In this document: positions 23,679 through 55,906 of the stretch, piece by piece
Layout of the letters: every line of letters starts with the position of its first letter
Numbering within the stretch: position 1 is the first letter of the stretch
Source: Lachnospiraceae bacterium
GTDB taxonomy: Bacteria > Bacillota > Clostridia > Lachnospirales > Lachnospiraceae
Length of the DNA: 64,000 bases
Direction of reading: 5' to 3'
Assembly: GCA_017456585.1 (NCBI GenBank)
Contig: JAFTJD010000051.1
Coordinates: 1 to 64,000 of the forward strand
Program-made: the position numbers and the translations under genes
The notes under the pieces: model-generated
The model's input: the letters and a program-made list of their open reading frames with translations, nothing else
Told to the model about the DNA's origin: nothing
Databases searched by the model: none

Positions 23679-23857
23679 TATATGTAAAAATAGGAGCAAT
23701 TGCGACTTACATAAGAAATATCCTTATACAAAATGCCTAAAACACCAAAATAGAATTTGGTTATTTGGTATATGGTTTTTTGAGACCTTTTAGTGTATCA
23801 TAGTAATAGTCTTATTGAGCAATTGAGCTATTGAACTATATTAGGAGGAGAAATATA

Positions 23858-24970
23858 ATGGCAAGTTTATCACTCAAAAACATTACTAAGGTATATCCTA
23901 ACGGATTCGTAGCTGTTAAGGAATTTAACCTTGAAGTAGCAGACAAAGAATTTATCATTTTCGTAGGACCTTCAGGATGTGGTAAATCAACAACACTTCG
24001 TATGATCGCAGGTTTGGAGGAGATTAGCTCCGGTGAACTTTGGATCGGCGACAAATTAATGAATGACGTAGAACCTAAGGACAGAGATATCGCGATGGTA
24101 TTCCAGAACTATGCGTTGTATCCTCATATGTCAGTTTATGACAACATGGCATTTGGTCTTAAGTTAAGAAAGACTCCGAAGGATCAGATTGATAAATTAG
24201 TACATGAAGCAGCTAAGATTCTTGATATCGAGCACTTATTAGATCGTAAGCCTAAGGCTTTATCAGGTGGTCAGAGACAGCGTGTTGCCATGGGTCGTGC
24301 AATCGTTCGTGATCCTAAGGTGTTCCTTATGGATGAGCCTCTTTCAAACCTCGATGCTAAGCTCCGTGTACAGATGCGTATTGAGATTTCTAAGTTACAT
24401 CAGAGACTTGAGTCTACAATCATTTACGTAACACATGACCAGACAGAGGCTATGACACTTGGTACAAGAATCGTAGTTATGAAGGATGGTTTAATTCAGC
24501 AGGTAGATTCACCTCAGAACTTATATGACAAACCACAGAACCTCTTCGTTGCACAGTTCATCGGTTCACCACAGATGAACACAATTGATGCAGAGGTTGA
24601 GAAGGTTGGTTCAGATGTTGTTCTTAACTTCGGTGGCAACTCAATCAAGCTTACAGAAGCAAAGGCTAAGAAGCTTGTTGATGGCGGATATGTTGGCAAG
24701 ACAGTTGTTCTTGGTATTCGTCCTGAGGATGTACATGATGATGAGATGTTCATCTCTTCTTCACCAGACAGCGTAATCGAGGCTACAATTCGTGTATACG
24801 AGTTACTTGGTGCAGAAGTTTACTTATACTTTGATATCGAGCAGTTTAACTGGACAGCACGTGTTAACCCTCGTACAACAGCTAGACCTGGCGATACAAT
24901 CAAGATGGCTCTTGATTTATCAAAGGTTCATGTATACGATAAGGAAACACAGCAGGTTATTACTAACTAG
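23858..24970 (+). CDS. ugpC: ABC sugar-importer ATPase, MsmX/UgpC type
   Basis: A 370-residue cytosolic ATPase of the CUT1 carbohydrate importer family. Walker A is GPSGCGKSTT, the signature LSGGQRQRVAMGRA, Walker B FLMDEPLSNLDAKLR, the switch His lies in VTHDQTEAMT, and a TOBE-type regulatory domain occupies about 240-370. ATG 23858 lies seven bases after AGGAGG. It is monocistronic with its own terminator, and no permease or binding protein is nearby. Such orphan ATPases (MsmX, MsmK) energise several sugar importers, so it may serve the ATPase-less operon at 42-55.6 kb; that link is inferred. Its codon use suggests strong expression. Confidence 0.9.
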   Translation: MASLSLKNITKVYPNGFVAVKEFNLEVADKEFIIFVGPSGCGKSTTLRMIAGLEEISSGELWIGDKLMNDVEPKDRDIAMVFQNYALYPHMSVYDNMAFGLKLRKTPKDQIDKLVHEAAKILDIEHLLDRKPKALSGGQRQRVAMGRAIVRDPKVFLMDEPLSNLDAKLRVQMRIEISKLHQRLESTIIYVTHDQTEAMTLGTRIVVMKDGLIQQVDSPQNLYDKPQNLFVAQFIGSPQMNTIDAEVEKVGSDVVLNFGGNSIKLTEAKAKKLVDGGYVGKTVVLGIRPEDVHDDEMFISSSPDSVIEATIRVYELLGAEVYLYFDIEQFNWTARVNPRTTARPGDTIKMALDLSKVHVYDKETQQVITN

Positions 24971-39709: not shown

Positions 39710-41905
39710 CTAATTATCGTTAAGATGCTCCTTGCGGTATGCAGCAGGAGTTGTATTGTAGTGCTCTTTGAATTTTCGCGAAAAGTATGCAGGTGTATTA
39801 TAACCAAGGTTTCTGGCTATATCGCTTATCGGCATATCCTTCTCGTTAGCCAGTAACCAGGCGGCTTTTTGCAATTTCTTATCTGCTACATAGTCCGAGA
39901 AGTTAATTCCTGTATGCTCTTTGAACACTCGGCTTAAATGGGCGGCACTTATGTTGAAGTATTCGGCGGTCATGCTAAGAGATATAATTAATATATTTTC
40001 GTCGATATATTCAGTTATTTGGTCAATGTAGCGTTTACTTGGGGCGTTATCGTGTGCATTTTTGAGTTCCTCTATATGAGATGCAAGTAAAGCAATTTCT
40101 TCACATAGAAATGTGCTGCATTCGTCGATGGAATCGAACTGACCGATAATATCTGAAAGAGGCATATCCTTGTAGCGATAATCCTTCTGGTTAGCTTTGC
40201 AATATGAATGTATAACCGCAAAAATAGTAAGATAATGATCCTTTATACGTATATAAGAAAAACCACGCTGACGCATTATATTCGGTAATGTGCGAATATA
40301 TTGTTGGAGGTCATCGAAAAGCTCGTTGTTAAGGAAATCCTGTAATTTGTTTGTCAAACCTGAATCTATCAATGCATTATTAGTTTCTAACTGTTCCAAC
40401 GTGTCCTGTGTAAGGAGATTGTTGTATTTGTATATATATGAATATTTCTGTCCGCTGATAATTATGTTGTAATTACGGGAAATATCATCAAGCGATACTG
40501 CGGGTATAGTACAGAAAACATTGAATTTGCAATCGTATACCCCGCTTAGATGTTCAAGGATATTTAGTGCAAGATTCTCGGGCATAAAGTTGTTGGAATT
40601 GATAATACAAGTGAGCTGATTGTTGGGATAAGGCATTAATGTATAGAAAATATCAGCAGTATTATCTAAGTGCATTTTAAGTGACTCTGTGATGCCTTCC
40701 GCAAAATCGTGTCTTTGATCCAATGGCATTTTCAAGATAGTCAAAGGCTCAGGTTCCACAACTATACATGAGGTATATTTGTAAAGTGTATTTGATTTTA
40801 TGATATGATGCAAGGCTTCATCAAGAGTGTTAAAGCCGGAGATACCATATAATAAGTCATAAGTATTCTTGAAAAGATAGCTTTCGTCGCTATTGTGTGT
40901 TTTTTCGGTTGTTGACTTAGAATGACTACGTTTTATGTGTGTAATTATAAAAAACAGAACGGCAGTAGCTATTACTGCGATACAGCATAACCAGTACATT
41001 ATTGTTGATGGATTATCCAGATCGAGTAATAGGTCTTTGGTTGAAGAAACCGGTTCATAGTAGAGATAAGTCAGGTCGCTTTCGTTCGATTTGGATATAT
41101 AAAAAGCATATTCGGTAGAAAATAATGTCTGATAAAGCTGGTTAGAGTTGCTTGCGGCGGACTCACTGATAATGTTCAGTATAGCTTCGTTAGAAAGAAT
41201 GTTTTTGCCGCTTGCGTATATTATGTTATCACCATCAATAATCAATGTAGTTCCGTTGCTTTGCATCTCGAGTGAATCTACATGAAAGAAAGTATCTTCA
41301 TCAAGCCATATTGCAAAAAATCCCGCATAAGAATCCTGATAAATATCGATCTGTCTGTGGACAGGATAAAAGTAATAAAGACGTGAATTCTCAGTAAGAT
41401 AGAACATGGGGATTGATTGTGACGGAAGCGAAATCAGTTCGTGTAAGTCTGCATAATTGCTGTTGTTGCTTTGAAGATATACTTCGTTTAGGCTGTATCC
41501 CGCGCGGGCAGCAGATACGAAGGAATCGTCGTATGTTCTATATAAGATTACATCATTAAACATTGTTTCAATTAATAGATGATTGAAAAGATCAAGACGT
41601 ATATCATAAGGAGTAATAGAATCAGATGTAGGGTCTTCGAAAAAAGCTGCAGGTTTATTTAGTAATGAAACTGAACGTGACAAAGCACCATGAGAATAAT
41701 CATGGAGCTCTATGTCGATCTTTCTGTCGGTAATCTGTGAGTAATTATTGATAAAACTTGTACGGTCGTTGGAAATTTCCTCTTGTGAAGTGTGATAAAA
41801 GCATAGTGTGATAGCAGATAAAATAGCAAATGTGACAAAAAAGCAGACCAATAAGTTGAGTATGCCTGTTGTGCGTTTTGGTAAATTTGTATAATTTGGC
41901 TTCAT
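39710..41905 (-). CDS. Membrane-anchored AraC-family regulator with extracellular sensor domain
   Basis: A 731-residue one-component regulator. Helix 1 (about 14-36), an extracellular Cache-like sensor (about 40-300) and helix 2 (about 303-325, IMYWLCCIAVIATAVLFFII) are followed by a cytosolic middle region and a C-terminal AraC DNA-binding domain with both helix-turn-helix units (LSMTAEYFNISAAHLSRVF and ISDIARNLGYNTPAYFSRKF). Regulators of this build usually control an adjacent glycan importer. It is divergent from the large sugar-transport operon, 277 bases away. AAGGAG lies just before ATG 41905. Confidence 0.87.
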   Translation of the reverse strand: MKPNYTNLPKRTTGILNLLVCFFVTFAILSAITLCFYHTSQEEISNDRTSFINNYSQITDRKIDIELHDYSHGALSRSVSLLNKPAAFFEDPTSDSITPYDIRLDLFNHLLIETMFNDVILYRTYDDSFVSAARAGYSLNEVYLQSNNSNYADLHELISLPSQSIPMFYLTENSRLYYFYPVHRQIDIYQDSYAGFFAIWLDEDTFFHVDSLEMQSNGTTLIIDGDNIIYASGKNILSNEAILNIISESAASNSNQLYQTLFSTEYAFYISKSNESDLTYLYYEPVSSTKDLLLDLDNPSTIMYWLCCIAVIATAVLFFIITHIKRSHSKSTTEKTHNSDESYLFKNTYDLLYGISGFNTLDEALHHIIKSNTLYKYTSCIVVEPEPLTILKMPLDQRHDFAEGITESLKMHLDNTADIFYTLMPYPNNQLTCIINSNNFMPENLALNILEHLSGVYDCKFNVFCTIPAVSLDDISRNYNIIISGQKYSYIYKYNNLLTQDTLEQLETNNALIDSGLTNKLQDFLNNELFDDLQQYIRTLPNIMRQRGFSYIRIKDHYLTIFAVIHSYCKANQKDYRYKDMPLSDIIGQFDSIDECSTFLCEEIALLASHIEELKNAHDNAPSKRYIDQITEYIDENILIISLSMTAEYFNISAAHLSRVFKEHTGINFSDYVADKKLQKAAWLLANEKDMPISDIARNLGYNTPAYFSRKFKEHYNTTPAAYRKEHLNDN

Positions 41906-41949
41906 GTTAACTCCTTGAAAAAACGAGAAAATAAAATTTGTATTAAATC

Positions 41950-42061
41950 AAAAAAATGATAGTCATATCAAAAAAGTGATAATTCAAAAAATGGTAATTC
42001 ATGATAAAAAAGTCGAAAAATGACAAAAATATCAAAAAAGTAACATCTATATCAAAAAAAA
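41950..42061. promoter_or_regulatory. Helically phased A-tracts in the divergent promoter region
   Basis: Eight A-tracts of five to eight A start at 41950, 41970, 41986, 42006, 42016, 42025, 42034 and 42054. Most intervals are near one or two helical turns, so the DNA should be strongly bent. Several tracts are framed by TATCA...TGATA half-sites (for example 41966-41980), which may be binding sites. Confidence 0.65.
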
Positions 42062-42099
42062 GTGGTTGAAACTTTGTTTCTATTATGATAAATTCTATA

Positions 42100-42126
42100 T
42101 TGACATTTTTACTAAAAAAAGTCAAG
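42100..42126. promoter_or_regulatory. Palindrome containing a consensus -35 box
   Basis: TTGACATTTTT (42100-42110) and AAAAAAGTCAA (42115-42125) form a near-perfect inverted repeat. The left arm is a consensus -35 element for the plus-strand operon, but no good -10 box is found at normal spacing, so activator dependence is plausible. The right arm reads TTGACT on the minus strand. Confidence 0.45.
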
Positions 42127-42182
42127 TAAATCTTATGCGAATTGTTTAATAATGCATGGAAACAAGGAGGGTGCAGCGAGAA

Positions 42183-45100
42183 ATGAGTATTAAGACGCAC
42201 AAACGTGGCAAAGTGAAGTCAATTATATCTGTCTTTTTGGCATTCACGATGCTCGGAAGTTTCGCTCTCACGTCATTTGCTTCAGGTGAGGTTCTTACCA
42301 CCACAAGCGCGCCGGTGACTAATGAGACCGAAGAAACAACAACAGATTCGGGAAAAGGAGGATTACCTCTCAATGAGAAGTATACATCTGATTACGGTAC
42401 TGTAATCGAGGGTGATTACTTGGATTTGGAATCAATTCCCAATTATTCAACTGTTCTCAAAGAATATGAGAATGTTAATGATGCAACAGAAGAGATTAAT
42501 GTTACATTAACAAGCGCGAAGACAGTTTATACCTATATACAATGTGATTCGTGCGGACATAAGTTTGGAGCAGGTAGAGAGAGTAAGAATGCTTTAGGAT
42601 TCTATACTTGTCCTGAGTGTGGAAGCTCATGTACAGACGATGACGTTCATACAAAGAATCAGAAAGTTGCTTTAGAAGACTATGAAGGCAAGAAGGCATT
42701 CGTATGGACAGCTGATTATGATTACATTGAGTTTCAGGTTTATTCAAAGCAGGATGCTATCTATCAGATTGAGATGGACTACTTCCTTGCATCAGGTAAT
42801 TCAAGTAACGGACAGAGAGAATTGTATATCGATGGTACATATCCATATGTAGAAGCCGGAGATTTGACATTCTATCGTTACTTTAAAGATTCAAGTGAAC
42901 CTGTTATTAACAGTATCGGTGATGAAACAAGACCTTCACAGGAAGTTATTCCGGGTTGGAGAACACAGAAATTCATCGACGGAGCAGGTTTGGCTGTGGA
43001 GCCTTTGAGAGTATATCTTACAAAGGGTATCCATACAATCAAGTTAGTATACAATAAGACAGACATGGCGATTGCCGGAATCAGATTTGTTGCTCCGGAT
43101 GCCGTTCCTACATATAATGAAGTATATGCTCAGTACATGGCTAACGGATACAAAGATGTAGCTGTTAAGACTTTAGAATTCCAGGCTGAGACAGAGACAA
43201 TCGAGAAGAACGATCCTACACTTCGTCGTGAAACAAGTACTAACCCTACTGTAAGACCTAGAGCTCTTGCTTGTCGTCTTCTTAATATTATGGGTGGCTC
43301 ACGTTGGAGATATGGTAATCAGGCTATCACATGGGAATTTGAAGTTGCTGAGAGCGGTCTTTACAAGATTGGCGTACGTTATATGCAGAACTGGAACGAT
43401 GGTTTGTCAGCATATAGACAGATTGCAATTGACGGAGAAGTTCCTTATCAGGAGTTCTGGGAGTATGAATTCCCTTATACAGGTTCTTCATTTACACTTG
43501 AGACACTTTCAGATGCTAAGGGTAATCCTTATGTTGTTTATCTTGAAGAAGGTAAGCATACGATGACAATGACAGTTAAGTTCGGAGCATTGGCAGATAT
43601 CGTTGAGTCTCTTGAGCAGGATATATCTACACTTTCAGATGTAGTTCTTAATATTACACTTGTAGCAGGTAGTGATCCTGACCCTAACTATGACTATCGT
43701 TTCTTTAAGACAATTCCTAACTTAAAGAATCAACTTCAGTCATTAGTTGACAGTATGCAGTGGAAATATGATTATCTTGTTGCAACAAGTGACAAGACTC
43801 CTGCTATAGCTAACCAATTCCTTTCTATTAAGGAGCAGCTTCAGGAACTCTTAGACGATCCGTTCATTATTGCTAAGCGTTTTAATGATTTGGGTACAGC
43901 ACAGGAGAACTTAAGTAATTATTACCAGACATTACAGGAAGGTAGAATGGCTATCGATTACTTCTACGTAGGACCTAAGACAGAAGAGTGGGAGAATGAG
44001 AAGTCAAATATTTTCCAAAGTATGTACACTATGTGGTGTGACTTTACAGCTTCATTCACTAAAGACTATGATAATGTCGGCGGTGTAATGGATGATGACG
44101 TTGTAATCAACGAGACAATCACTGTATGGGTAGCGAGAGGTACTGAGTGGGCAGAGCTTATCAAGGAACTTGCAGATGAAAGCTTTACACCATATACAGG
44201 TATCGCAATCGACGTTAACGTCGTACCTGCTAACCAGTTATCAGCAGGTAGCGTAAATGCGCTCATGCTTGCTATCACATCAAATAAGGCACCGGACGTA
44301 GCTATGGGTGTTGATACATCTTCACCTGGTGAGTTTGCTATCCGTGATGCTGTTTATGATTTATCACAGTTCGAGGGATGGACAATTGAGTCTCCTAGCG
44401 GACGTGGAACTTATGAAGTAAAAGGTTTTGAAGAAATTAAAGACAGATTCGTAGAAGAAATCTTTGACGTATATACATATAATGGTGGAATTTATGCTCT
44501 TCCTGAGACAATGGAAGTTAACGTATTATTCTATAGAAAAGATGTTTTATCATCACTTGGTATCAACGTTCCGGATACAAGACAGGAGTTATATGATTAC
44601 GTAATGCCTGTTCTTTATCAGAATGGTTTGGAATTCTATTTCGCGAGAGACTTTACTCAGATATTATTCCAGCATGGCGGTTCATATTATACCGAAGATG
44701 GTATGTCAACAGCATTTGATACTCCTGAGGCATATACAGCATTCAAAGAGTACACAGAGTTGTTTACACACTATGATGTAGATGAAACAGCTAACTTCTA
44801 CAACCGTTTCAGAGATGGTGTAATGCCAATCGGTGTAGGTTCATTCGCAACTTACTTACAGCTTTGTGTAGCAGCTCCTGAGCTTGCTGGTAAGTGGGGA
44901 ATCGCTTTACTTCCTGGTGTAGAGAAGACAGGAGTAGACGAGAATGGTGAAGAATACACATATGTTGATAGAACAGCAGGTGCACTTGCACAGACTTGTG
45001 ATATCATCTTAAAGCAGAGTGATCAGCCTGAAGCAAGCTGGGCATTCATTGAGTGGTGGACCAGTGAAGAGGTTCAGACACTTTATGCTTCTGAGGTTGA

Positions 45101-45392
45101 GGCACTTCAGGGTGCATCAGCACGTTGGAATACAGCTAACAAAGAGGCTTTCTTAAGTCTTGACTGGGATAAGGACGATATCGAAATTATTCAGCAGAGC
45201 TGGGATTGGGCACAGGAAGTTCCTTTCGTACTCGGTGGACAGTATGTTGCTCGTCACTTAACAAATGCATGGACATCAGTTGTTGTAAGTGGTGGCGATG
45301 TCAGAGAAGCATTGGAAGAGGCAGTTAAGCAGATCAACCGAGAGCTTCGTATGAAGCAGGAAGAATACGGATTTGCCGTACCTGAACAATAA
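42183..45392 (+). CDS. Large multidomain extracellular solute-binding protein
   Basis: A 1069-residue exported protein, about twice the usual size of a sugar-binding protein. A signal peptide (to about residue 35, no lipobox) is followed by a zinc ribbon C121-x2-C124-x18-C143-x2-C146, two beta-sandwich modules like CBM6/CBM35 (about 150-310 and 325-500), a helical linker and a family 1 binding-protein domain (about 630-1020). It is first in an operon with permeases. The extra modules suggest binding of a polymeric glycan before import; the ligand is unknown. ATG 42183 gives a normal signal peptide; GGAGG lies 12 bases upstream. Confidence 0.82.
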   Translation: MSIKTHKRGKVKSIISVFLAFTMLGSFALTSFASGEVLTTTSAPVTNETEETTTDSGKGGLPLNEKYTSDYGTVIEGDYLDLESIPNYSTVLKEYENVNDATEEINVTLTSAKTVYTYIQCDSCGHKFGAGRESKNALGFYTCPECGSSCTDDDVHTKNQKVALEDYEGKKAFVWTADYDYIEFQVYSKQDAIYQIEMDYFLASGNSSNGQRELYIDGTYPYVEAGDLTFYRYFKDSSEPVINSIGDETRPSQEVIPGWRTQKFIDGAGLAVEPLRVYLTKGIHTIKLVYNKTDMAIAGIRFVAPDAVPTYNEVYAQYMANGYKDVAVKTLEFQAETETIEKNDPTLRRETSTNPTVRPRALACRLLNIMGGSRWRYGNQAITWEFEVAESGLYKIGVRYMQNWNDGLSAYRQIAIDGEVPYQEFWEYEFPYTGSSFTLETLSDAKGNPYVVYLEEGKHTMTMTVKFGALADIVESLEQDISTLSDVVLNITLVAGSDPDPNYDYRFFKTIPNLKNQLQSLVDSMQWKYDYLVATSDKTPAIANQFLSIKEQLQELLDDPFIIAKRFNDLGTAQENLSNYYQTLQEGRMAIDYFYVGPKTEEWENEKSNIFQSMYTMWCDFTASFTKDYDNVGGVMDDDVVINETITVWVARGTEWAELIKELADESFTPYTGIAIDVNVVPANQLSAGSVNALMLAITSNKAPDVAMGVDTSSPGEFAIRDAVYDLSQFEGWTIESPSGRGTYEVKGFEEIKDRFVEEIFDVYTYNGGIYALPETMEVNVLFYRKDVLSSLGINVPDTRQELYDYVMPVLYQNGLEFYFARDFTQILFQHGGSYYTEDGMSTAFDTPEAYTAFKEYTELFTHYDVDETANFYNRFRDGVMPIGVGSFATYLQLCVAAPELAGKWGIALLPGVEKTGVDENGEEYTYVDRTAGALAQTCDIILKQSDQPEASWAFIEWWTSEEVQTLYASEVEALQGASARWNTANKEAFLSLDWDKDDIEIIQQSWDWAQEVPFVLGGQYVARHLTNAWTSVVVSGGDVREALEEAVKQINRELRMKQEEYGFAVPEQ

Positions 45393-45402
45393 GAATAGTA
45401 CA

Positions 45403-45430
45403 CGGTGTCGTCGTTTGGGCGACGACACCG
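45403..45430 (+). other. Intercistronic GC-rich hairpin
   Basis: CGGTGTCGTCG (45403-45413) pairs perfectly with CGACGACACCG (45420-45430), loop TTTGGG. No T-tract follows, so it more likely protects the mRNA 3' end of the binding-protein gene or attenuates transcription than terminates it. Confidence 0.65.
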
Positions 45431-45460
45431 GAGAACACTATAAAGTTGAGAATCTTGGGG

Positions 45461-45501
45461 AAAGGAGCGCGTAAGCATTTTTACAGCTTGCGGACAAAAT
45501 T
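45461..45501 (+). other. Distant Shine-Dalgarno bridged by a hairpin
   Basis: AAAGGAG (45461-45467) lies 34 bases before ATG 45502, with no other start codon in frame after the TAA at 45472. CGTAAGC-like 45470-45476 pairs with 45486-45492 (seven pairs, one G-T), which would loop out and leave an effective spacing of about 11 bases. Confidence 0.5.
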
Positions 45502-46452
45502 ATGAGTAAAGAGTTAACATTCGACTCGGCCGTAGCTAAAAAGTATAAGAAAAGTTTCAAAGAACGTTTCGTTATCTTCATTAAGAAGAATTGGATTGGA
45601 TATTTGTTCTTGGCACCATTCCTTATCCTTTTTACAATATTTACCGTTATCCCGGTAATATATGCGCTTGGTTTAAGTTTTACGAACTATAACATGTTGC
45701 AGGCAGCAACATGGGCAGGTGTTGATAACTACAGACTTCTCTTTTTGGATGACTCTGTATTTATGACAGCTATCAGTAATACCCTTACCTTCTCTATCAT
45801 AGTAGGACCTACAGGTTACCTTATGTCCTTCTTTGCAGCGTGGGTAATTAATCAGTTGAAGGCTAAGAGAGCATTCGCATTAGCTTTCTATGCACCATCC
45901 ATCACAAGTGGTATCGCCATGAGTACAGTTTGGTTGGTTGCATTCTCATCAGACAGACAGGGTTATATCAATAACTTCCTTATTAACTTAGGTTTTATTG
46001 ATCAGCCTATTTTGTGGAATACCGACCCTAACTACATTATGACAGTTATTATTATCATTCAGTTGTGGATGAGTATGGGTACAGGTTTCCTCGTATTCCT
46101 TGCAGGTTTACAGAACGTTGATCGTTCATTATATGAAGCAGGTGCGATTGATGGTGTTAAGAATAAACTTCAGGAGTTATTCTATATTACACTTCCGTCA
46201 ATGAAGCCACAGCTTTTGTTCGGTGCGATTAACTCTATCACAGGTTCATTTGGTGTATTCGAGATTGCAACACAGGTTGCTGGTATGCCAAGTCCACAGT
46301 ATGCGGGACATACAATCGTTGCCCATCTTTATGACTATGCGTTCATGCGTTTCCAGATGGGTTATGCTTCGGCGGTAGCGGTAGTACTTTTTGTTATGAC
46401 ATTCGTTTTAGGAAAAGTAGTTATGAAGTTGCTTTCCTCAAAGGATGAATAG
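45502..46452 (+). CDS. Sugar ABC transporter permease (first pair, MalF-like)
   Basis: A 316-residue inner-membrane permease of the binding-protein-dependent CUT1 family with six main helices. The EAA loop near the C-terminal third, YEAGAIDGVKNKLQELFYITLP, docks the ATPase. Together with the next gene it forms the translocation pore for the binding protein encoded upstream. A 109-base gap with a strong hairpin separates it from the binding-protein gene, and its ribosome binding site is unusually far away. Confidence 0.88.
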   Translation: MSKELTFDSAVAKKYKKSFKERFVIFIKKNWIGYLFLAPFLILFTIFTVIPVIYALGLSFTNYNMLQAATWAGVDNYRLLFLDDSVFMTAISNTLTFSIIVGPTGYLMSFFAAWVINQLKAKRAFALAFYAPSITSGIAMSTVWLVAFSSDRQGYINNFLINLGFIDQPILWNTDPNYIMTVIIIIQLWMSMGTGFLVFLAGLQNVDRSLYEAGAIDGVKNKLQELFYITLPSMKPQLLFGAINSITGSFGVFEIATQVAGMPSPQYAGHTIVAHLYDYAFMRFQMGYASAVAVVLFVMTFVLGKVVMKLLSSKDE

Positions 46453-46476
46453 AAGGCGAAGGAGGGAATCTAGAAA

Positions 46477-47358
46477 ATGATTAAAATTAAATGGTTTAAA
46501 GGTCAGTGGATTCATATTACATTCGCCAATATTGCGTTGTATACAATAATGGGCTTGCTTGTGTGCTTTACAGCATTGCCTCTTGTATATCTTGTAAGTA
46601 CAGCGTTTAAGCCTTTGGATGAATTGTTTCTCTATCCACCGCAGTTTATCGTTAGAAAGCCAACCACACAGAACTTTACAGACCTTTTTATGTCTCTTAA
46701 CAGTTCTTCGGTTCCGTTCATACGATTTACATTTAACAGTGTTATTATTACAGTAGGAATCGTTGCGGCAACAGTTGTTGTATCATCAATTGGTGCATAT
46801 TCATTGGTTAAGTTCAAGCCTCCGGGCGGAAAGAGAATATTCGACCTCGTACTTATGGCTCTTATGTTCTCACCACACGTAACAAAGATTCCTAGTTATA
46901 TGGTAGTTAACAAGTTGGGTTTGATTGATACATATTGGGCATTGCTTTTGCCTAGTATAGCCGTCGCCTACAACTTCTTCCTCATGAAGCAGTTCTGTGA
47001 GCAGTATCCTGATGAGCTTATTGAGGCAGCGAGAATTGATGGTTCGGGCGAGCTTAGAATTTTCCTTAAGCTTGTAATGCCTGCTCTTGGACCTGCATGG
47101 TCAACACTTATTGTATTCTCGTTTGTAAGTAACTGGAATGATTATTTCTCACCTTTGATTTATATTACAAGCCAGGCTATGAAGACATTGCCGCTTGCAC
47201 TTCAGACAATTGCCGGTGGTGCTGCTACAGCTTCTATCGGTAGAGCGGGTGCGGTTGCGGCTTCCGGCTTACTTATGACATTGCCTACAATCGTTATCTT
47301 CACATTGATGCAGAGTAAGGTTATGGAGACAATGACATATTCAGGTATTAAAGGTTAA
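46477..47358 (+). CDS. Sugar ABC transporter permease (first pair, MalG-like)
   Basis: A 293-residue CUT1 permease with six helices. The EAA loop reads IEAARIDGSGELRIFLKLVMPAL, and the long loop between the first two helices (AFKPLDELFLYPPQF) is typical of MalG-type subunits. GGAGGG lies about 11 bases before ATG 46477, 24 bases after the first permease. A C-terminal SGIKG ending matches the family. Confidence 0.88.
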   Translation: MIKIKWFKGQWIHITFANIALYTIMGLLVCFTALPLVYLVSTAFKPLDELFLYPPQFIVRKPTTQNFTDLFMSLNSSSVPFIRFTFNSVIITVGIVAATVVVSSIGAYSLVKFKPPGGKRIFDLVLMALMFSPHVTKIPSYMVVNKLGLIDTYWALLLPSIAVAYNFFLMKQFCEQYPDELIEAARIDGSGELRIFLKLVMPALGPAWSTLIVFSFVSNWNDYFSPLIYITSQAMKTLPLALQTIAGGAATASIGRAGAVAASGLLMTLPTIVIFTLMQSKVMETMTYSGIKG

Positions 47359-47395
47359 TTTTGAATTATACAAAAAAATTAAGGGAGGAATAGCG

Positions 47396-49582
47396 TTGAC
47401 TGGTTTAAAAATTAAAGGTCGTTTGAAGAAGCTTTTTGTTACAGCAATGGCAACAATGATGCTTTTACAGACTATGACCGGTACGGCTTTTGCCGCTACA
47501 GCAGACGGAACAGATTATGTAACAGTTAACTCTAACGAACGTAATCCTATTCCTAAGGCTTATGTGGTAGCCGACGAAATTAATAATCTTGGAACTTTTG
47601 CAAAAAATAGTAAAAACTATTTCAAGAATCCGCAGGATATAGACATTGATAGAAATAACAACCTCTATATTGCGGATACAGGTAACAATCGTATTGTAGT
47701 ATTAGATACAAACTATGATGTTATCGTAGTAATTACCGAAGCTGATGGCTTGCCATTTGAAGCTCCGGAAGGCGTATTCGTTGATGATTCAGGCGATATT
47801 TATGTAGCTGATACAGGTAACAGAAGAATTGTTCATCTTGCTAATGACGGAACATATATCGAAACTTTTGTTAACCCTACAGATGAGCTTGTAGCAAACG
47901 ATGCATTTAACCCATCAAAACTCGTTGTAAGTGAGACAGGTCTTATCTACGTAGTTCGTGGTGAGAATATCATGGCTATCGATGGTAACAACGGATTTAG
48001 AGGACTTTTTGGTCAGACAGATATCGGATATAATCTTGTAGAAGTATTGATTCGTATGTTTGCATCTGATGAGCAGAAGAAATTCGTTACAAGAAGAACT
48101 GCTTCTGCATATGTTAATGTTGATTTAGGTGATGACGGACTTATCTATGCTACCAGTGTGGAGCGTACAGAGGGTGAAATCAAGGTACTTAACTCAATCG
48201 GTAATAATATCTACCGTAAGTACACAAACGTAGGTGATTCATTCGTTAATCCTATTACATCATTTATTAACAATAAGCTTTTAAAGGCAGTAGTTGCAGG
48301 TACATCATTCAAATTCGGTGAGTATTTCGATGATGAGGGTAACTATATTGAGCCTAACTTCGTAGACATTACAGTTGATAGCAATGGTATCGTTACTGTA
48401 GCTGAACAGGATGGCGGAAAGATATACCAGTATGATCAGAATGGTAACATGCTTTGTGCATTCGGTGGTCTCGGTGAGTCTAAGGGTACATTCTCAAGAC
48501 CATCATCTATTGCTGTTAACAGTAACGGAATCATATATGTAGTAGACCGTTTGAGTAATAATATTCAGATTTTCGAACCTACAGATTTCATTAAGACTGT
48601 TCATGCAGCTACAACAGCTTATGAGAACGGTTCTTATGATGAGGCATTTGATTTGTGGAATGAAGTTCTTAGTATGGATGAGAACTACACACTTGCACAT
48701 GCCGGTATCGCAAATGCTTATTTCAAGATGGGCGAGTATGAGCTTGCTATGGAATCAGCGATGAATGCAAATGATAGAGATATCTATACAAAGGCATTCG
48801 ATGAATATAAGTACGAAGTAATGCAGAAGCATTTCTTCCTTATAATCGTTATTGTTATAGTAGTAATCGTATTGGTGTACTTATTCCTTAAATATTCATT
48901 CAGGGCTGCTAAGAAAGCAACTTGGAATTATATTTCGGATAAGACCAAGAAGATGTCAATTGGCCAGGGTATTCTTTTTGCATATAATGTATTATTCCAT
49001 CCGGTAGACTGTATGGAAGCAATCCGTTATAACAAGAAGAGAATCAATATGGCAATACCATTCATAATCTTTATCACAGCTTATGTTGTACGTATTGCAT
49101 ATATCTATATTGTTCATTATCCGTTGGCGTCAATTGATTTGACAGATGCGAATGTTATATTTGAAGGTGTTAAATTATTCATTGTACCGGTGACATGGAT
49201 ACCTGCTTCTTTCATGGTAACAAGTATTTCTGATGGTGAAACAAAGATGAAGGATATATTCTTTGCTACATCACTCAGCTTGGTTCCTTATATAGTAATC
49301 AACGTTCCTTTGATGTTTATTTCTAATATATTATCAAAGAGCCAGGCATCATGGTATGGTGTATTCTCCGCAGCTTGCTTTATATGGATGTTCATAATTC
49401 TGTTCTTGAGCTTATGGATACTTAATGGTTATTCATTTGGAAAAACAATTAAATCAGTCATAATCATTGCATTCGTAATGCTATTGATTTGGGTAGTAGT
49501 TCTTCTCTGCTATGTACTTGTTGGAAGATTATTCCAGTTCATTGGCGGAGTATATGACGAATTTATGATGAGTATATTGTGA
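47396..49582 (+). CDS. NHL-repeat, TPR and Yip1-domain membrane protein
   Basis: A 728-residue protein of unusual composition. A signal peptide (about 1-34) is followed by NHL-type beta-propeller repeats (NPQDIDIDRNNNLYIADTG, APEGVFVDDSGDIYVADTG, RPSSIAVNSNGIIYVVDRL; to about 400), one or two TPR units (about 410-465, AHAGIANAYFKMGEYELAME), a transmembrane helix (about 480-500) and a Yip1-type domain of five helices (about 530-725). The propeller would face outside. TTG 47396 is the likely start, seven bases after GGGAGG. Role unknown; position between two permease pairs suggests a scaffold or sensor for the importer. Confidence 0.8.
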   Translation: MTGLKIKGRLKKLFVTAMATMMLLQTMTGTAFAATADGTDYVTVNSNERNPIPKAYVVADEINNLGTFAKNSKNYFKNPQDIDIDRNNNLYIADTGNNRIVVLDTNYDVIVVITEADGLPFEAPEGVFVDDSGDIYVADTGNRRIVHLANDGTYIETFVNPTDELVANDAFNPSKLVVSETGLIYVVRGENIMAIDGNNGFRGLFGQTDIGYNLVEVLIRMFASDEQKKFVTRRTASAYVNVDLGDDGLIYATSVERTEGEIKVLNSIGNNIYRKYTNVGDSFVNPITSFINNKLLKAVVAGTSFKFGEYFDDEGNYIEPNFVDITVDSNGIVTVAEQDGGKIYQYDQNGNMLCAFGGLGESKGTFSRPSSIAVNSNGIIYVVDRLSNNIQIFEPTDFIKTVHAATTAYENGSYDEAFDLWNEVLSMDENYTLAHAGIANAYFKMGEYELAMESAMNANDRDIYTKAFDEYKYEVMQKHFFLIIVIVIVVIVLVYLFLKYSFRAAKKATWNYISDKTKKMSIGQGILFAYNVLFHPVDCMEAIRYNKKRINMAIPFIIFITAYVVRIAYIYIVHYPLASIDLTDANVIFEGVKLFIVPVTWIPASFMVTSISDGETKMKDIFFATSLSLVPYIVINVPLMFISNILSKSQASWYGVFSAACFIWMFIILFLSLWILNGYSFGKTIKSVIIIAFVMLLIWVVVLLCYVLVGRLFQFIGGVYDEFMMSIL

Positions 49583-49623
49583 TGATTTGAACATGAATAT
49601 GTATTCTACAGAAAGGAGCTATT

Positions 49624-52005
49624 ATGTTAGGAGGAATTAAAGATTTCTTTAGTAAGAACAATTTCATATTAAAGAAAATTAAAAGAACCTTTACTAAAGA
49701 TAATATGAAAAGATGGTTGAGAGACAATCGCGCGACACTTATCTTTATGGCAATAGTTGCAATCTTCGTAACATGGGGTATCATCAGTGTTAAGATTGCA
49801 ATGGCTAATGCAGTAGTAGTAAGCTATGAAGATTATGTTCCTCGTGAAGTGACACATGATCCTGCGGTAGTCTTTGCAGAACCATATAATTATGAAAAAA
49901 TAGCCGGAGATGAGAACCTTGAGTTGTATTTTGATAAAGTTCATGGAACAATTCAGGTTAAGGATTTGAAGTCCGGTAATACATGGAAGAGTATTGTAGA
50001 CGGAGAGGTTTACGAGAACTTCAGAAAGTCTAACCAGAAATGGAAACAGAAGATGAGTTCTTCTATTATAGTCAGCTACAATGACCTTGAGGCACGTGAT
50101 GGTAGAGCTGCAGAGCTTACACATGCCGGCGAATGTGACTATATGGAGTCAAAGCTTATTGAAAACGGTGTGGAAGTTTTATATGGTTTCACCGTTAAGG
50201 GTATTTATGTAACGGTTCAGTACCTTATTGAAGGCGGAGAACTTGTAGTTAAAGTTCCGATTGACGGTATAACAGAAGAAACAAGATACATCGTTAATAC
50301 AGTAATTGTGCTTCCGTACTTCGGTGCAGCTGATATGTATCAGGATGGATATATGTTCTATCCGGACGGCTGTGGAGCTATCACATTATTTAATAATGCT
50401 GAGAACCGTGTACAGAGTGTTAAGGAAGCATTCTTAAAGACTTATACAACTAATAAAATTTCTCTTGATTACTGGTTAATGTCAGATGATTATGAGAGAT
50501 ACAATGCAGCAATGCCGATATTCGGTATTAAGAACAATGATAACGCATTCCTTGCAGTAGTGACAGGCGGTGACGAGAACTCAGGAATAACTGTTGCACC
50601 TGCAGGACGTGTAGTTGATGTTAACAGAATCTACTTTGAGCTTTACATTAGAAATCAGTTCGATATTACAGCTGCTAACGTAACAAATACCGATGGTACA
50701 GTTACAACAGGACGTGAGATTACACGTATCGATAGAAATAAGCTTGCTGTTGACAGAGAAGTAAGATATTTCTTCCTCCACGATGAGAAGGCGAATTATG
50801 CCGGCATGGCTGATGCATACAGAACATATCTTATGGAAAATGGTCAGCTTAATGATGCTATAGCAGATACAGATGAGTATCCGCTTGCACTTAGTTTCCT
50901 TATGGGAACAACAGAGAGACAGCTTGTAGCAGATAAATACATTACTATGACAAGCTTCAAGAATCTTGAGGATATCTTCGAGGATCTTAGGGCAGAAGGT
51001 ATTGACGATGCTAAGGTTGTTGTTAATCACTGGCTCAAGGATGATGAAGATTTCCCTTCATATTGGCCGGTAGCAAGCCAGATTGGTGGTAAGAGCGGTA
51101 TGGCTGATTTGAACAGCTATCTTGCAGCTAACACGGGCTTGGATGTATATTTTGCAAATAACTTTATCTTTGCAACAAATGATGAAAGTGGATTCTCTCC
51201 TATTAAGGATGTAGTTTATAGTGGTATCGGTACTCCTATTTCTACAGAGACAATTAATCAGGAAGAATACTTCATCTTAGGACCGGATGTAGTTCTTGAA
51301 CATGTAAGAGATTATCTCAGTAAGACAAAGGATTACGCAAATATCGGAGTATGCTTTACTAATATGGGTAATGTTGTATATGACGATTACAATGAGGATA
51401 ATCCTGCATCAAGAAGAGATGTAATCAATACATGGCAGACAGTTCTTAAAGAAACACAGGCAGAAGGAAAGAAGACTGCTGTAGAAGGCGCTAACCAGTA
51501 TTCATACGGAAATGTTGATTACTTATATTCAATTCCGGTTAGTACATACGGACTTTCTATTACAGATTATGCAGTTCCGTTCGTTCAGATGGTAGTGTCA
51601 GGTTTAATCCCATATTCATCAGGAATATATGAGACAGGTAACCTTACATACGATCTTGACATTCAGAAGCTTGAGTGGATTGAGTTCGGAGCACTTCCGT
51701 ACTTCTATCTCACATATGAAAATGCTTTGGAATTAAAGGATACAGAACTTAACTTCCTTTTCACATCTACATATTCATTCTGGAGAGACCGTGTTATCGA
51801 AACATATAAAGAGTTCGAAGCTAACTTCGGAGATACATATGGCGAGCAGATGGTTGCACATGAAGTTCTTGGTGAGGATGTAAGAAGAGTAGAGTATTCT
51901 AACGGTAAAGTGATTTATATTAACTACGCAGAGACAGAGAATACAGAGTTTGGTATTACAATTCCGGCAAAAGGTTACACAATAGTAGAAAAGGAGGCTA
52001 ACTAA
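49624..52005 (+). CDS. DUF5696 membrane-anchored extracellular protein
   Basis: A 793-residue protein with a basic cytosolic start, one transmembrane helix (about 38-62) and a large outside part. The first extracellular half is beta-rich (GTIQVKDLKSGNTWKSI; YPDGCGAITLFNN), the second looks alpha/beta-barrel-like (VVNHWLKDDEDFPSYWPV; YLAANTGLDVYFANNF). This matches DUF5696, found with sugar importers in Firmicutes. The layout recalls GH-type enzymes with an N-terminal beta-sandwich, so a glycan-acting enzyme or binder is possible but unproven. AAAGGAG precedes ATG 49624; the stop overlaps the next gene by one base. Confidence 0.72.
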   Translation: MLGGIKDFFSKNNFILKKIKRTFTKDNMKRWLRDNRATLIFMAIVAIFVTWGIISVKIAMANAVVVSYEDYVPREVTHDPAVVFAEPYNYEKIAGDENLELYFDKVHGTIQVKDLKSGNTWKSIVDGEVYENFRKSNQKWKQKMSSSIIVSYNDLEARDGRAAELTHAGECDYMESKLIENGVEVLYGFTVKGIYVTVQYLIEGGELVVKVPIDGITEETRYIVNTVIVLPYFGAADMYQDGYMFYPDGCGAITLFNNAENRVQSVKEAFLKTYTTNKISLDYWLMSDDYERYNAAMPIFGIKNNDNAFLAVVTGGDENSGITVAPAGRVVDVNRIYFELYIRNQFDITAANVTNTDGTVTTGREITRIDRNKLAVDREVRYFFLHDEKANYAGMADAYRTYLMENGQLNDAIADTDEYPLALSFLMGTTERQLVADKYITMTSFKNLEDIFEDLRAEGIDDAKVVVNHWLKDDEDFPSYWPVASQIGGKSGMADLNSYLAANTGLDVYFANNFIFATNDESGFSPIKDVVYSGIGTPISTETINQEEYFILGPDVVLEHVRDYLSKTKDYANIGVCFTNMGNVVYDDYNEDNPASRRDVINTWQTVLKETQAEGKKTAVEGANQYSYGNVDYLYSIPVSTYGLSITDYAVPFVQMVVSGLIPYSSGIYETGNLTYDLDIQKLEWIEFGALPYFYLTYENALELKDTELNFLFTSTYSFWRDRVIETYKEFEANFGDTYGEQMVAHEVLGEDVRRVEYSNGKVIYINYAETENTEFGITIPAKGYTIVEKEAN

Positions 52006-52967
52006 TGGAAAAGCAGATTAAGCGTAAGAAAAAACATCTTACACTGCGCCAGAAAGACCAGTTAAAAGGTTTGTTCTTCGTAGCACCTTTTATAATTGGT
52101 ATAGCATTATTCTTTGCATATCCGATTGGCTTGTCTATAAGATTAGCTTTCGGTAAAGTAGAGAACATCGTTGGTTTCCAGGTCGCATTTGTAGGTATCG
52201 AGAACTTTAAGAGAGCCTTCCTTGTAGATACAAACTTTATACCTTTGTTTTTACAGACGGTAGGTAATACACTTCTTAAGTTCCCGTTGACAGTAGTATT
52301 TTCACTTATCATAGCTATTATGCTTAACAGAAAGATTGTATGTAGAGGTTTATTCCGTGTTATCTTCTTCATACCATTCCTTCTCGGAGCCGGTGTAGTT
52401 ATGAACCAGTTAAGAGCATTGGGTGTAGACAGAGAAGTATTGTCTATTATGGATGGTAAGATTATTCCATACAATATTCTTAACTATTTCGGTGGTGATA
52501 TCGTAACAGCCGTACAGAAAGTATTCGGTATTATCGTACAGGTATTATGGGATAGTGGTGTTCAGATTCTCTTGTTCTTGTCAGGTCTTCAGAGTATTTC
52601 TCCTGCTTTGTATGAAGCAGCGAAGATTGACGGTGCAACAGAATGGGAGATTTTCTGGAAGATTACAATTCCTATGATTTCTCCGATGATGTTACTTAAT
52701 ATTATCTATACATTAGTTAATACATTCGTAGACTATGATAACCAGATGCTTGGTTACATTGATACATGGGGCTTTGGTAATGCAGAGTTCGGCTATGGCG
52801 CAGCACTTGGTTGGATATACTTTGCATTCGTAGGCTTACTTATGGCAATTGTATTTGGTGTTATGAAGGGTTACATGCATACAAACGAAGTTGAGGAGGT
52901 GAAGAAGCGTGGCCGCAAGAGCAGAAAAGTCTTTACAATCGAAAGAACCAAAAAACGTAGCTACTAA
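52005..52967 (+). CDS. Sugar ABC transporter permease (second pair, MalF/LplB-like)
   Basis: A 320-residue CUT1 permease with six helices and EAA loop YEAAKIDGATEWEIFWKITIPMI. It starts within the stop of the DUF5696 gene (TAATG) and its last 59 bases overlap the next permease in another frame. An in-gene GGAGG at 52885-52899 serves that next gene. It is a second, independent translocator half in the same operon. Confidence 0.87.
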   Translation: MEKQIKRKKKHLTLRQKDQLKGLFFVAPFIIGIALFFAYPIGLSIRLAFGKVENIVGFQVAFVGIENFKRAFLVDTNFIPLFLQTVGNTLLKFPLTVVFSLIIAIMLNRKIVCRGLFRVIFFIPFLLGAGVVMNQLRALGVDREVLSIMDGKIIPYNILNYFGGDIVTAVQKVFGIIVQVLWDSGVQILLFLSGLQSISPALYEAAKIDGATEWEIFWKITIPMISPMMLLNIIYTLVNTFVDYDNQMLGYIDTWGFGNAEFGYGAALGWIYFAFVGLLMAIVFGVMKGYMHTNEVEEVKKRGRKSRKVFTIERTKKRSY

Positions 52968-53934
52968 TGAGCAGGAATTCAGCAAATTTAAGTACTATTT
53001 GAAGCGTGCACGTCAGTACTTCACTTCAGCATCAAGAATCAAACAGTTGATTCTTAAGATAGCAATGTATGTGTTCCTCATTGGTTTAGCATTTGTATTC
53101 GTTTATCCGTTCCTTTTCATGATTATCACATCTTTGAAGAGCAATGCCGACCTTGGTAACTATGCGGTTAAGTGGATACCGACAAGACTCCAGTTCGAGA
53201 ACTATTCAATCGCACTTGAGTTTATGAAATATGGCCAGTACTTTAAGAATACTATGATAGTAACAGTACTTGCTACATTAGGACACGTGGTAGCTTGTTC
53301 GTTTATCGGATATGGCTTTGCAAGATTTAATTTCCCATTCAAGAAATTATTATTCGGATGCGTAATGCTTGCATTTATCGTTCCTATTCAGACATTAATC
53401 GTTCCTATGTATCTTACATATGCAAAGTTTGGTTGGAGAAACACATACCTTCCTTTGATTGTACCTACATTTTTTGGATTCGGTTTAAGAGGTGGTTTGT
53501 TCATATTCTTGTTCAGACAGTTTTACCTCACACTTCCGAGAGATTTGGAGAATGCAGCACGTATTGACGGTTGTGGTTTCCTTCAGACATATCTTAGAAT
53601 AGTGTTCCCTCTCGGACAGTCAACAATGGTAGTTGCCACTGTATTGTCAGTAGTATGGCACTTTAATGATGATTATGAGCCAAGTATGTACATTGACAAG
53701 GCGCAGATGGGCTTCCTTCCGCCGCGTATCGGTTATATCGTAGGTTTGGCTAATTCACCGCCAGAAGTACTCTACGAGACAATGGAAATGCTCGGACTTG
53801 ATGATGATACTCTTAACGATGCGGTAATTATGGCATCCGCAGCACTTATCTGTGCTCCGGTTATCCTTTTCTTCGCATTTGCACAGAGACTCTTCATGGA
53901 AGGTATTGAAAGATCCGGTATTACGGGTGAGTAA
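52909..53934 (+). CDS. Sugar ABC transporter permease (second pair, MalG-like)
   Basis: A 341-residue CUT1 permease with a long charged N-terminal tail (about 1-45) before helix 1 (YVFLIGLAFVFVYPFLFMI). The EAA loop is ENAARIDGCGFLQTYLRIVFPLG. GTG 52909 is the start, with GAGGAGG nine bases upstream, giving a 59-base overlap with the preceding gene. A later start near residue 17 would avoid most of the overlap but lacks a ribosome binding site. C-terminal SGITG matches MalG-type ends. Confidence 0.85.
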   Translation: MAARAEKSLQSKEPKNVATNEQEFSKFKYYLKRARQYFTSASRIKQLILKIAMYVFLIGLAFVFVYPFLFMIITSLKSNADLGNYAVKWIPTRLQFENYSIALEFMKYGQYFKNTMIVTVLATLGHVVACSFIGYGFARFNFPFKKLLFGCVMLAFIVPIQTLIVPMYLTYAKFGWRNTYLPLIVPTFFGFGLRGGLFIFLFRQFYLTLPRDLENAARIDGCGFLQTYLRIVFPLGQSTMVVATVLSVVWHFNDDYEPSMYIDKAQMGFLPPRIGYIVGLANSPPEVLYETMEMLGLDDDTLNDAVIMASAALICAPVILFFAFAQRLFMEGIERSGITGE

Positions 53935-53987
53935 GGTGTTACAAGGAGCAATCCTTTGTTATATAATGCACATTAGGAGGAGAAAAA

Positions 53988-55616
53988 ATGAAAAAGAGTA
54001 AGAAAGTTTTAGCATTAGCTCTTGCAGCAATGATGACTGTATCAGCTTTTGCAGGTTGCGGCGGCGATGATCCTGCTGAGACAACAGCAGCTACAACACC
54101 TGTTGCAACAACACAGGGTTCAAACACAGATTCAACAACAGCTGGAACAACAGCAGCTCCAACAGCAGCTCCAACAGAGTTAAGTATCATGGTACCTTAT
54201 GGTGATCATGCATATGATGAGCTCCCGGAGACAATTGAGTGGAGAAACAAATTAGAGACATACACAAACACAAAGATCACATGGGAGTTATATGATTCAG
54301 GTGCTTACTACGAGAAGCTTACACTTAAGTATGCTTCAGGTGAGTTAACAACAATCATGGTAACAGACCAGAACGCAGACTTTATGTCAGCATGTAAGTA
54401 CAACACATTCTGGGATATCACAAACTACGTTGATTTATTCGACAACTTAACAACAATCCCAGCAGCAACAAGAGCAAACGCATCTAACAATGGTAAGCTC
54501 TACGGTGTTCCTCGTTCAAGAGATCTCGGACGTAACGCTTGTGCATTCCGTCAGGACTGGGCAGATAACTTAGGACTTGGATTCCCTGAGACAATCGAAG
54601 ATTTATATGACATGGCAGTAGCATTCACAATCGACGATCCAGATGGAAACGGTAAGAATGATACATACGGATTTGGTCTTGACTCATGGGCAGGACAGTG
54701 GGATATTATGTTCCCATGGTTCGGATGCCACAACGTATGGGGCTTTGATGCAAACGGTAACCTTGAGTACTATGCAACACAGCCAGAGTTTAAGACAGCT
54801 CTTAAGGCATTCCGTCAGTGGAATTCAGAAGGCTTAATCAACGAAGGATGGCAGGATTTAGGCGCAGGTGCAGCTGAGAAGTCAATCTTCAGAACAAACA
54901 TGGCTGGTATTTCAGTTCAGGTTGCTGACTGTCCTAGAAAGTCACAGGTAGCTATGAATGGTACAGCAGATAAGCCAGGTAACTATCCAGAGGCAGCATT
55001 TACATACTTCGGTTCAGTAGATGCAGGTTACGGCGCTAGAGTACTTCCTACAGCAGGATACGCTGGATACGTAGCAGTAACAAAGGCACTTGCTCCTACA
55101 GAGGATGACCTCATGGGCGCACTTCAGTTCTTAAATGATATCAATGACGCAGAGATGAGAAACCTTATCGACTGGGGTCTTGAAGGAAAGAACTACTACA
55201 TCGATGAGAATGGTTACGGTGTAAGATATACAACAGAAGAGAAAGAGGCTATGGGTGTTTCAACAGCTTCTTACACAACAGGATACAACCAGATGTGTCC
55301 ATACTTCTCAAATGCAGAAGAGTCAGCTAAGCTTGTAGCAGGTGAAGTTACAGAGCCTATCAGACTTGCAGAGGCAGCAATCAAGGTTGAGAACATTCAG
55401 TACTGTGTACCTAATGTAGGTGCAGGTTATACATCAGCTACATATGTAGATGTTGGATCAGATCTTGATGCACATATTGAGAAGCTTATCCTTGACTTCA
55501 TCTTAGGTGACATTGATGAGACAGCACTTGATGCAGGTCTTGAGCAGTGGTATGAGATGGGTGGCCAGGCATACATCGATGAGATGAATGCAGCTTACAA
55601 GGCAGCTAACTCATAA
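53988..55616 (+). CDS. Sugar-binding lipoprotein of the second importer
   Basis: A 542-residue extracellular solute-binding protein. Its signal peptide ends in lipobox FAGC (Cys24), and a Thr/Ala-rich linker (about 28-63) tethers the binding domain. The size and pattern (ELPETIEWRNKLE, VDLFDNLTTIPAATRANASNNGKLYGVPR, YGFGLDSWAGQWD) match LplA/LipO-like binding proteins of oligosaccharide importers. AGGAGG lies before ATG 53988. Codon use is strongly biased (ACA, GCA, CTT), suggesting very high expression. A perfect terminator follows, closing the operon. Confidence 0.88.
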   Translation: MKKSKKVLALALAAMMTVSAFAGCGGDDPAETTAATTPVATTQGSNTDSTTAGTTAAPTAAPTELSIMVPYGDHAYDELPETIEWRNKLETYTNTKITWELYDSGAYYEKLTLKYASGELTTIMVTDQNADFMSACKYNTFWDITNYVDLFDNLTTIPAATRANASNNGKLYGVPRSRDLGRNACAFRQDWADNLGLGFPETIEDLYDMAVAFTIDDPDGNGKNDTYGFGLDSWAGQWDIMFPWFGCHNVWGFDANGNLEYYATQPEFKTALKAFRQWNSEGLINEGWQDLGAGAAEKSIFRTNMAGISVQVADCPRKSQVAMNGTADKPGNYPEAAFTYFGSVDAGYGARVLPTAGYAGYVAVTKALAPTEDDLMGALQFLNDINDAEMRNLIDWGLEGKNYYIDENGYGVRYTTEEKEAMGVSTASYTTGYNQMCPYFSNAEESAKLVAGEVTEPIRLAEAAIKVENIQYCVPNVGAGYTSATYVDVGSDLDAHIEKLILDFILGDIDETALDAGLEQWYEMGGQAYIDEMNAAYKAANS

Positions 55617-55637
55617 TTAGTTAATAATATGATTATT

Positions 55638-55668
55638 AGTCCCTCCGGGTAACCGGAGGGACTTTTTT
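55638..55668 (+). terminator. Terminator of the dual-importer operon
   Basis: AGTCCCTCCGG (55638-55648) and CCGGAGGGACT (55653-55663) form a perfect 11-bp stem with loop GTAA, followed by TTTTTT. Confidence 0.93.
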
Positions 55669-55695
55669 GCGTGCAAAACGAGAATTAAGCTCAAA

Positions 55696-55840
55696 TCCGC
55701 CTGCGGCTACTTTTCGCTCGCAACATTCGCCAAATGAAAGCGCTTGCACGCTTTCATTCACACCTAGGAAGAAATAGTCCTGTAAGCAAGCTTACGTCCT
55801 GTTTCTTCCTAGGTGTTAGAAATCGCTTCGCGATTTCGCC
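55696..55840. repeat. Cluster of inverted repeats, intergenic element
   Basis: Three perfect inverted repeats follow one another: AATGAAAGCG/CGCTTTCATT (55733-55742/55749-55758), ACACCTAGGAAGAAA with its complement (55760-55774/55802-55816, enclosing a smaller GTAAG/CTTAC hairpin), and GAAATCG/CGATTTC (55819-55825/55831-55837). A 14-mer (55711-55724) is the reverse complement of 342-355, which marks it as a repeated element. The rest of the 55617-55943 gap holds the operon terminator and an AT-rich promoter region. Confidence 0.7.
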
Positions 55841-55906
55841 TGGCTCATTGTTATGCGAAAAATAAAAAATTAACAAGAAAAAGTACTATAAATTAATAAG
55901 TGAGTA

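Follow-up and report, generated by a model that had tools for sequence, protein, structure and literature searches.

Introduction

Importers of the CUT1 type combine a solute-binding protein (SBP) with two permeases of the BPD_transp_1 family, whose EAA loops provide the contact with the ATPase. They often use one common ATPase of the MsmX/MalK type, which is encoded outside the importer operon, and are regulated by AraC-type proteins. The same features are found in the operon described here, which lies at positions 42183–55616 of a 64,000-nucleotide stretch of DNA from a Lachnospiraceae bacterium (contig JAFTJD010000051.1, positions 1 to 64,000; hereafter, the window). Unlike CUT1 importers, it encodes two permease pairs joined by an NHL–Yip1 and a DUF5696 protein, and one of its two SBPs (SBP1) carries two modules resembling carbohydrate-binding modules (CBMs). 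In the aldouronate cluster of Paenibacillus, lplA-lplB-ytcP stands with genes for GH67, GH10, and GH43 and encodes a single importer; it is not known to include NHL–Yip1 or DUF5696. Several sister loci of the operon resemble that cluster in having a CUT1 importer beside genes for xylan degradation, whereas the two importers and, as far as is known, NHL–Yip1 and DUF5696 set the operon apart from it. With the SusCD systems of Bacteroidota, the operon may share, by analogy, the coupling of surface glycan capture to import and to hydrolase genes, although no outer membrane and no TonB are involved and the proteins are entirely different. Lastly, DUF5696 is similar in overall fold and domain order to the glycoside hydrolases of families GH129 (NagBb, 5wzn; ZgGH129, 5opq/8rzk) and GH101. 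In contrast to these enzymes, it conserves neither the catalytic Asp/Glu pair nor two further invariant Asp residues, is membrane anchored, and is encoded beside importer genes in nearly all loci.

The permeases, the SBPs, and the ATPase are of known kinds. In the open-access literature, however, neither a description of the composite operon nor one of the kinship between DUF5696 and GH129 was found (subscription papers lay outside the search, and an earlier description is possible there), and the open-access literature searched held no mention of DUF5696. The original prediction, a reading made from the sequence of the window, had called the operon undescribed-looking, which agrees with the lack of a description as a unit in the open-access literature. 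The operon probably constitutes a surface module for glycan capture and import in which DUF5696 is, for the most part, non-catalytic.

Composition of the operon

The genes are arranged in the order SBP1, P1, P2, NHL-TPR-Yip1, DUF5696, P3, P4, SBP2, all on the forward strand and separated by −59 to +110 bp. For SBP1, both the reading frame and an AAGGAGG site immediately 5′ of the gene agree with a start at 42183. A single strong intrinsic terminator (55638–55663, forward strand; an 11-pair stem followed by TTTTT) lies behind SBP2. Gene spacing and terminator suggest that 42183–55616 is co-transcribed. Gene content, order, and shared terminator had been predicted in this form, as had two binding proteins and two permease pairs flanking two exported membrane proteins; all genes were present at these coordinates, and the domain matches agree.

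SBP1 (42183–45392) consists of an N-terminal signal or transmembrane segment, two CBM35/6-like modules, a helical linker, and a C-terminal solute-binding domain of the CUT1 type (SBP_bac_1, E = 5e-19, residues 667–974), the best match of which is the sugar SBP Lin1841 (5ysb, E = 1e-35). A profile match (E = 2e-9) links the N-terminal part to the CBM35 of a CITase (5x7g). In the AlphaFold model of SBP1 (pLDDT 81), the modules have the β-sandwich fold of CBMs, matching the CBM35 2w1w with a TM(target) of 0.65–0.69 as well as CBM6 structures; they may bind carbohydrate. The copy of SBP1 in the window contains a zinc-ribbon-like insert (CDSCGHKF...CPECGSSC; CxxC..CxxC) in its first CBM-like region (residues ∼130–158; window ∼42540–42630), which is missing from the majority consensus of its relatives. 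SBP2 (53988–55616) is an SBP of the lipoprotein type with the lipobox FAGC, and its match to SBP_bac_8 (E = 3e-6) is weak (27.6 bits versus a cut-off of 27).

All four permeases are BPD_transp_1 proteins, and their relatives are UgpA/UgpE and GlcT/GlcU, of the CUT1 type. P1 (45502–46452; UgpA/MalF type) has the EAA loop EAGAIDGVKNKLQELFYITLP, P2 (46477–47358; UgpE/MalG type) an intact EAA loop, P3 (52005–52967) the EAA loop EAAKIDGATEWEIFWKITIP, and P4 (52909–53934) an EAA-like loop, ENAARIDGCGFLQTYLRIVFP, readable in the translation. The GTG start assigned to P4 by the ORF finder overlaps P3, and the true start may be slightly downstream. EAA loops are also present in the majority of the permeases sampled, and the notion that P3 and P4 are uncoupled permeases was therefore not supported. 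An SBP encoded next to two BPD_transp_1 permeases that possess EAA loops is the mark of a CUT1 importer, and the operon has this arrangement. The EAA loop of P1 differs from those of P2–P4 by one additional residue and a recurring KNRxQELxYITLP-like motif in 10 of the 10 loci compared, the window included.

Between the permease pairs lie the genes for NHL-TPR-Yip1 (47396–49582; NHL, E = 8.6e-20; TPR, E = 7e-6; Yip1, E = 8e-7) and DUF5696 (49624–52005; PF18952, E = 8e-146). The Yip1 match is just above threshold (29.5 bits versus a cut-off of 28.6). The former protein is predicted to begin with a signal peptide; its NHL propeller and TPR would be secreted, with a single transmembrane segment between them and a Yip1 domain of five transmembrane segments. 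In most relatives, NHL and Yip1 are two adjacent genes, the fusion in the window being one of two arrangements. DUF5696 comprises an N-terminal transmembrane anchor, a β-rich N-domain, and a GH129-like barrel.

Conservation of the gene block

Sixty-three loci from the order of the window organism, from the wider phylum, and from two annotated plasmids were compared. Yip1 or NHL–Yip1 is encoded immediately 5′ of DUF5696 in 59 of them, P3–P4 follow DUF5696 in 57, and SBP1-P1-P2 stand ahead in 50. Forty-seven of the 63 loci have the whole block in place, with a median gap of 4 bp and 95% of the gaps below 50 bp. When a Yip1 profile search was used to find loci independently in named genomes, 77 of the 80 loci contained DUF5696. 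Carriers belong to Lachnospiraceae, Butyrivibrio, Paenibacillus, Thermobacillus, Mahella, Halanaerobiales, and Limnochordia, and an identical order is annotated on a Paenibacillus and a Butyrivibrio plasmid. The order of the block is far beyond chance and recurs in dozens of other genera.

Across 196 genomes of the order, the DUF5696 cut-off was passed in 44, of which 35 have a strong match to DUF5696 proper and the others mostly GH129 with partial matches. Each of these 35 genomes additionally encodes the Yip1 subfamily found in the operon of the window (36 genomes in total; Fisher P = 6e-38) and the CBM-bearing N-terminal domain of SBP1 (38 genomes in total; Fisher P = 1e-35), values that are not strict probabilities because the tests ignore shared ancestry. 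Moreover, 67 of the 69 Yip1-subfamily matches have a DUF5696 match no more than 2 kb away. Four genomes have a part of the block but no DUF5696. In the three of these that were inspected, the matches were at contig ends (G091 and G100) or belonged to a decayed copy (G148); the match in the fourth (G076) is a 68-residue Yip1 fragment. In another genome (G040), the block is divided over two contigs. In the phylum sample, DUF5696 was found in 37 of 398 genomes, and some genomes contain up to five or six copies. A single-sequence pattern search for DUF5696 in genome contigs gave no match because the family is too divergent. Co-occurrence in 35 of 35 genomes, the check named with the original prediction, and the conserved order bear out the proposal that DUF5696, Yip1–NHL, and the permease pairs belong together as one conserved unit. 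What they support is functional linkage of the genes, not a complex of their products.

DUF5696 has a GH129-like fold with variable catalytic residues

A profile built from 37 DUF5696 sequences matched ZgGH129 (E = 2e-15) and NagBb (E = 1e-8). The AlphaFold model of the DUF5696 protein in the window is confident (pLDDT 84.5), and Foldseek retrieved GH129 structures as the best matches (5opq, E = 6e-34; 5wzn, E = 3e-30), followed by GH101, GH36, and GH31. With a TM(target) of 0.72–0.76 to GH129, the overall fold is that of this family. The original prediction saw no recognized hydrolase in the operon, which has to be corrected insofar as both sequence and model place DUF5696 next to GH129.

For the catalytic site, 63 DUF5696 proteins were aligned jointly with GH129 enzymes from related genomes. 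In NagBb, the catalytic pair is presumably Asp435 (nucleophile) and Glu478 (acid/base), an assignment that fits the mutants named in the PDB titles for GH129 and GH101 (8rzk D486N, 5a58 D764N, and 5a59 E796Q); the Asp of the LHLDGW motif, also considered as the nucleophile, was dropped. The GH129 enzymes of related genomes keep all four acids without exception, the positions of Asp435 and Glu478 being invariant in 11 relatives. Within DUF5696, the nucleophile site is Asp in 28 of 63 proteins, and the acid/base site is Glu in eight and either Glu or Asp in 18, the window protein among them (Asn580 at the nucleophile site and Glu621 at the acid/base site). The exact Asp and Glu pair occurs in three proteins, and any acid at both sites in eight. 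The LHLDGW Asp is replaced in 63/63, the Asp of the GYDN site is kept in 11/63, and not one of the proteins has all four acids together. The joint alignment contradicts the assumption that both catalytic residues are missing from all DUF5696 proteins, since some keep one or both and the window protein keeps Glu. Because the catalytic acids vary across the 63 members, the feature conserved in the family is not GH129-type hydrolysis. DUF5696 is, as judged by alignment and model, apparently a GH129-like fold that is catalytically degraded in most members; its role is probably binding, which is simpler than cutting, although some members may be active. The three proteins with both Asp and Glu (loci L084, L085, and L096) are candidates for residual enzyme activity. 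Loci L103–L114 of related genomes encode GH129-type enzymes of ∼620 amino acids that are above the Pfam cut-off for DUF5696 and mostly below that for GH129, so that Pfam annotation can mislabel them.

A bolder form of the capture-and-import reading would make DUF5696 a retired glycosidase turned importer receptor, which together with NHL-TPR-Yip1 presents glycan to P3–P4, the whole block being one supercomplex with two channels, a Gram-positive counterpart to SusCD; we regard this as conceivable but doubtful. We consider it rather unlikely that DUF5696 is active, in which case it would represent a new family of glycosidases or transglycosylases at the surface, with a shifted or different catalytic pair, and would trim glycans for two ordinary importers. 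The GH129/GH101-like fold, export and anchoring of the protein, and the acids that many members (the window protein included) keep at one catalytic site or the other speak for it. However, the family as a whole has no conserved catalytic acid, the LHLDGW and GYDN acids are replaced throughout or in most members, and the window protein has Asn where the nucleophile should be.

Two parts of the block and its cargo

In a few loci, SBP1-P1-P2 is located after P4 instead of ahead of the block, or is absent nearby, and the block therefore consists of two parts, [SBP1-P1-P2] and [NHL-Yip1-DUF5696-P3-P4]. The same loci favor the view that two unrelated importers are merely co-transcribed, with NHL–Yip1 and DUF5696 serving P3–P4 alone. 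Yet, the N-domain of SBP1 and DUF5696 are found in the same genomes of the order almost without exception, and SBP1-P1-P2 remains adjacent even when reordered (L093, L099, L165, and L183), so that we consider this view improbable.

Many sister loci adjoin genes for the degradation of xylan (GH10, GH43, GH3, GH67, and GDSL esterases), pectin (GH28 and pectate lyase), and mannan (GH26), which points to plant polysaccharides as the cargo, varying by copy. GH27/36, GH35, and often an additional SBP are encoded there as well. Behind the copy on a Paenibacillus cellulosilyticus plasmid (L031), further SBPs and several flavin monooxygenases of a luciferase-like kind are encoded, which is unusual for a glycan importer. 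That the module senses or remodels envelope glycans of the cell itself rather than importing nutrients is very unlikely: NHL, TPR, and Yip1 are indeed unusual as importer parts and the window copy does lie among housekeeping genes, but many copies are flanked by polysaccharide hydrolase genes, and the patchy distribution (44/196 genomes of the order and 37/398 of the phylum) with up to six copies per genome fits catabolism.

ATPase, regulator, and flanking sequence

No ATPase gene is present within 42183–55616, as the original prediction held, but the window does encode an ATPase of the MalK/MsmX type 17 kb upstream of the operon (23831–24970, forward strand; ABC_tran, E = 9e-31; OB_MalK, E = 5e-15; TOBE). 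Two OB_MalK proteins were found in the assembly, this one and another encoded on contig C44. As CUT1 importers often have an MsmX-type ATPase in common and the window encodes such a protein, its absence from the operon is ordinary, and the protein at 23831–24970 is likely the shared motor for the importers of the operon. In the Paenibacillus plasmid copy, a UgpC gene directly precedes the block.

Divergent from the operon lies the gene for an AraC-type regulator (39710–41905, minus strand; HTH_18, E = 4e-23). Two transmembrane segments are predicted from hydropathy peaks near residues 11–38 and 299–326, as anticipated for a membrane-spanning regulator facing the operon, and the ∼260-residue loop between them is predicted to be an extracellular sensor. 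Directly past the terminator, at 55680–55860, three near-perfect hairpins are arranged like a clover leaf (z −7.1 for the DNA fold). The central arm is present a single time in the genome, and no Rfam family matched the hairpins at its threshold.

Discussion

The CUT1 permeases, the CBM35/6-like modules of SBP1, and the neighboring genes for polysaccharide degradation make glycan capture and import the best reading of the block, which would be a dedicated large-glycan uptake module of Gram-positive bacteria. At the cell surface, polysaccharides or long oligosaccharides would be held both by the pair of CBM35/6-like modules in SBP1 and by the DUF5696 barrel on its membrane anchor, while NHL-TPR-Yip1 would place its secreted propeller and TPR on a multi-spanning membrane scaffold. 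Fragments could then be passed to the two permease pairs, P1–P2 with SBP1 and P3–P4 with DUF5696 and/or SBP2, both presumably powered by a common MalK/MsmX-type ATPase encoded elsewhere. The permeases, CBM-like modules, and neighbors argue for the capture and import part of what had been proposed as a composite glycan-capture machine, whereas linkage of the genes does not establish a single physical machine. Parts, order, and linkage of the block are directly observed, as are the EAA loops, a catalytic pair that is no longer conserved, and the ATPase gene in the window; topology and anchoring follow from hydropathy, and the fold of DUF5696 from profile and model. The glycan cargo, the receptor role of DUF5696, the scaffold role of NHL–Yip1, the sharing of the ATPase, and joint action are what these observations suggest.

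Several points weigh against this reading. The three DUF5696 proteins that retain both Asp and Glu make activity of a subset possible, and the loci with NHL-Yip1-DUF5696-P3-P4 and no SBP1-P1-P2 nearby indicate that the modules are separable. Furthermore, no glycosidase gene is adjacent to the operon in the window, and GH10, sought as a test of xylan specificity, was not found in the 76%-complete window genome; about ten GH43 genes are present there.

The analysis ties a domain of unknown function, DUF5696, to a known enzyme fold with probable loss of catalysis. Although plant-fiber-degrading Bacillota from soil, the gut, and the rumen commonly carry the block, often in multiple copies, its genes are annotated individually. 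It provides a coherent unit for the question of how Gram-positive bacteria capture and import large plant glycans.

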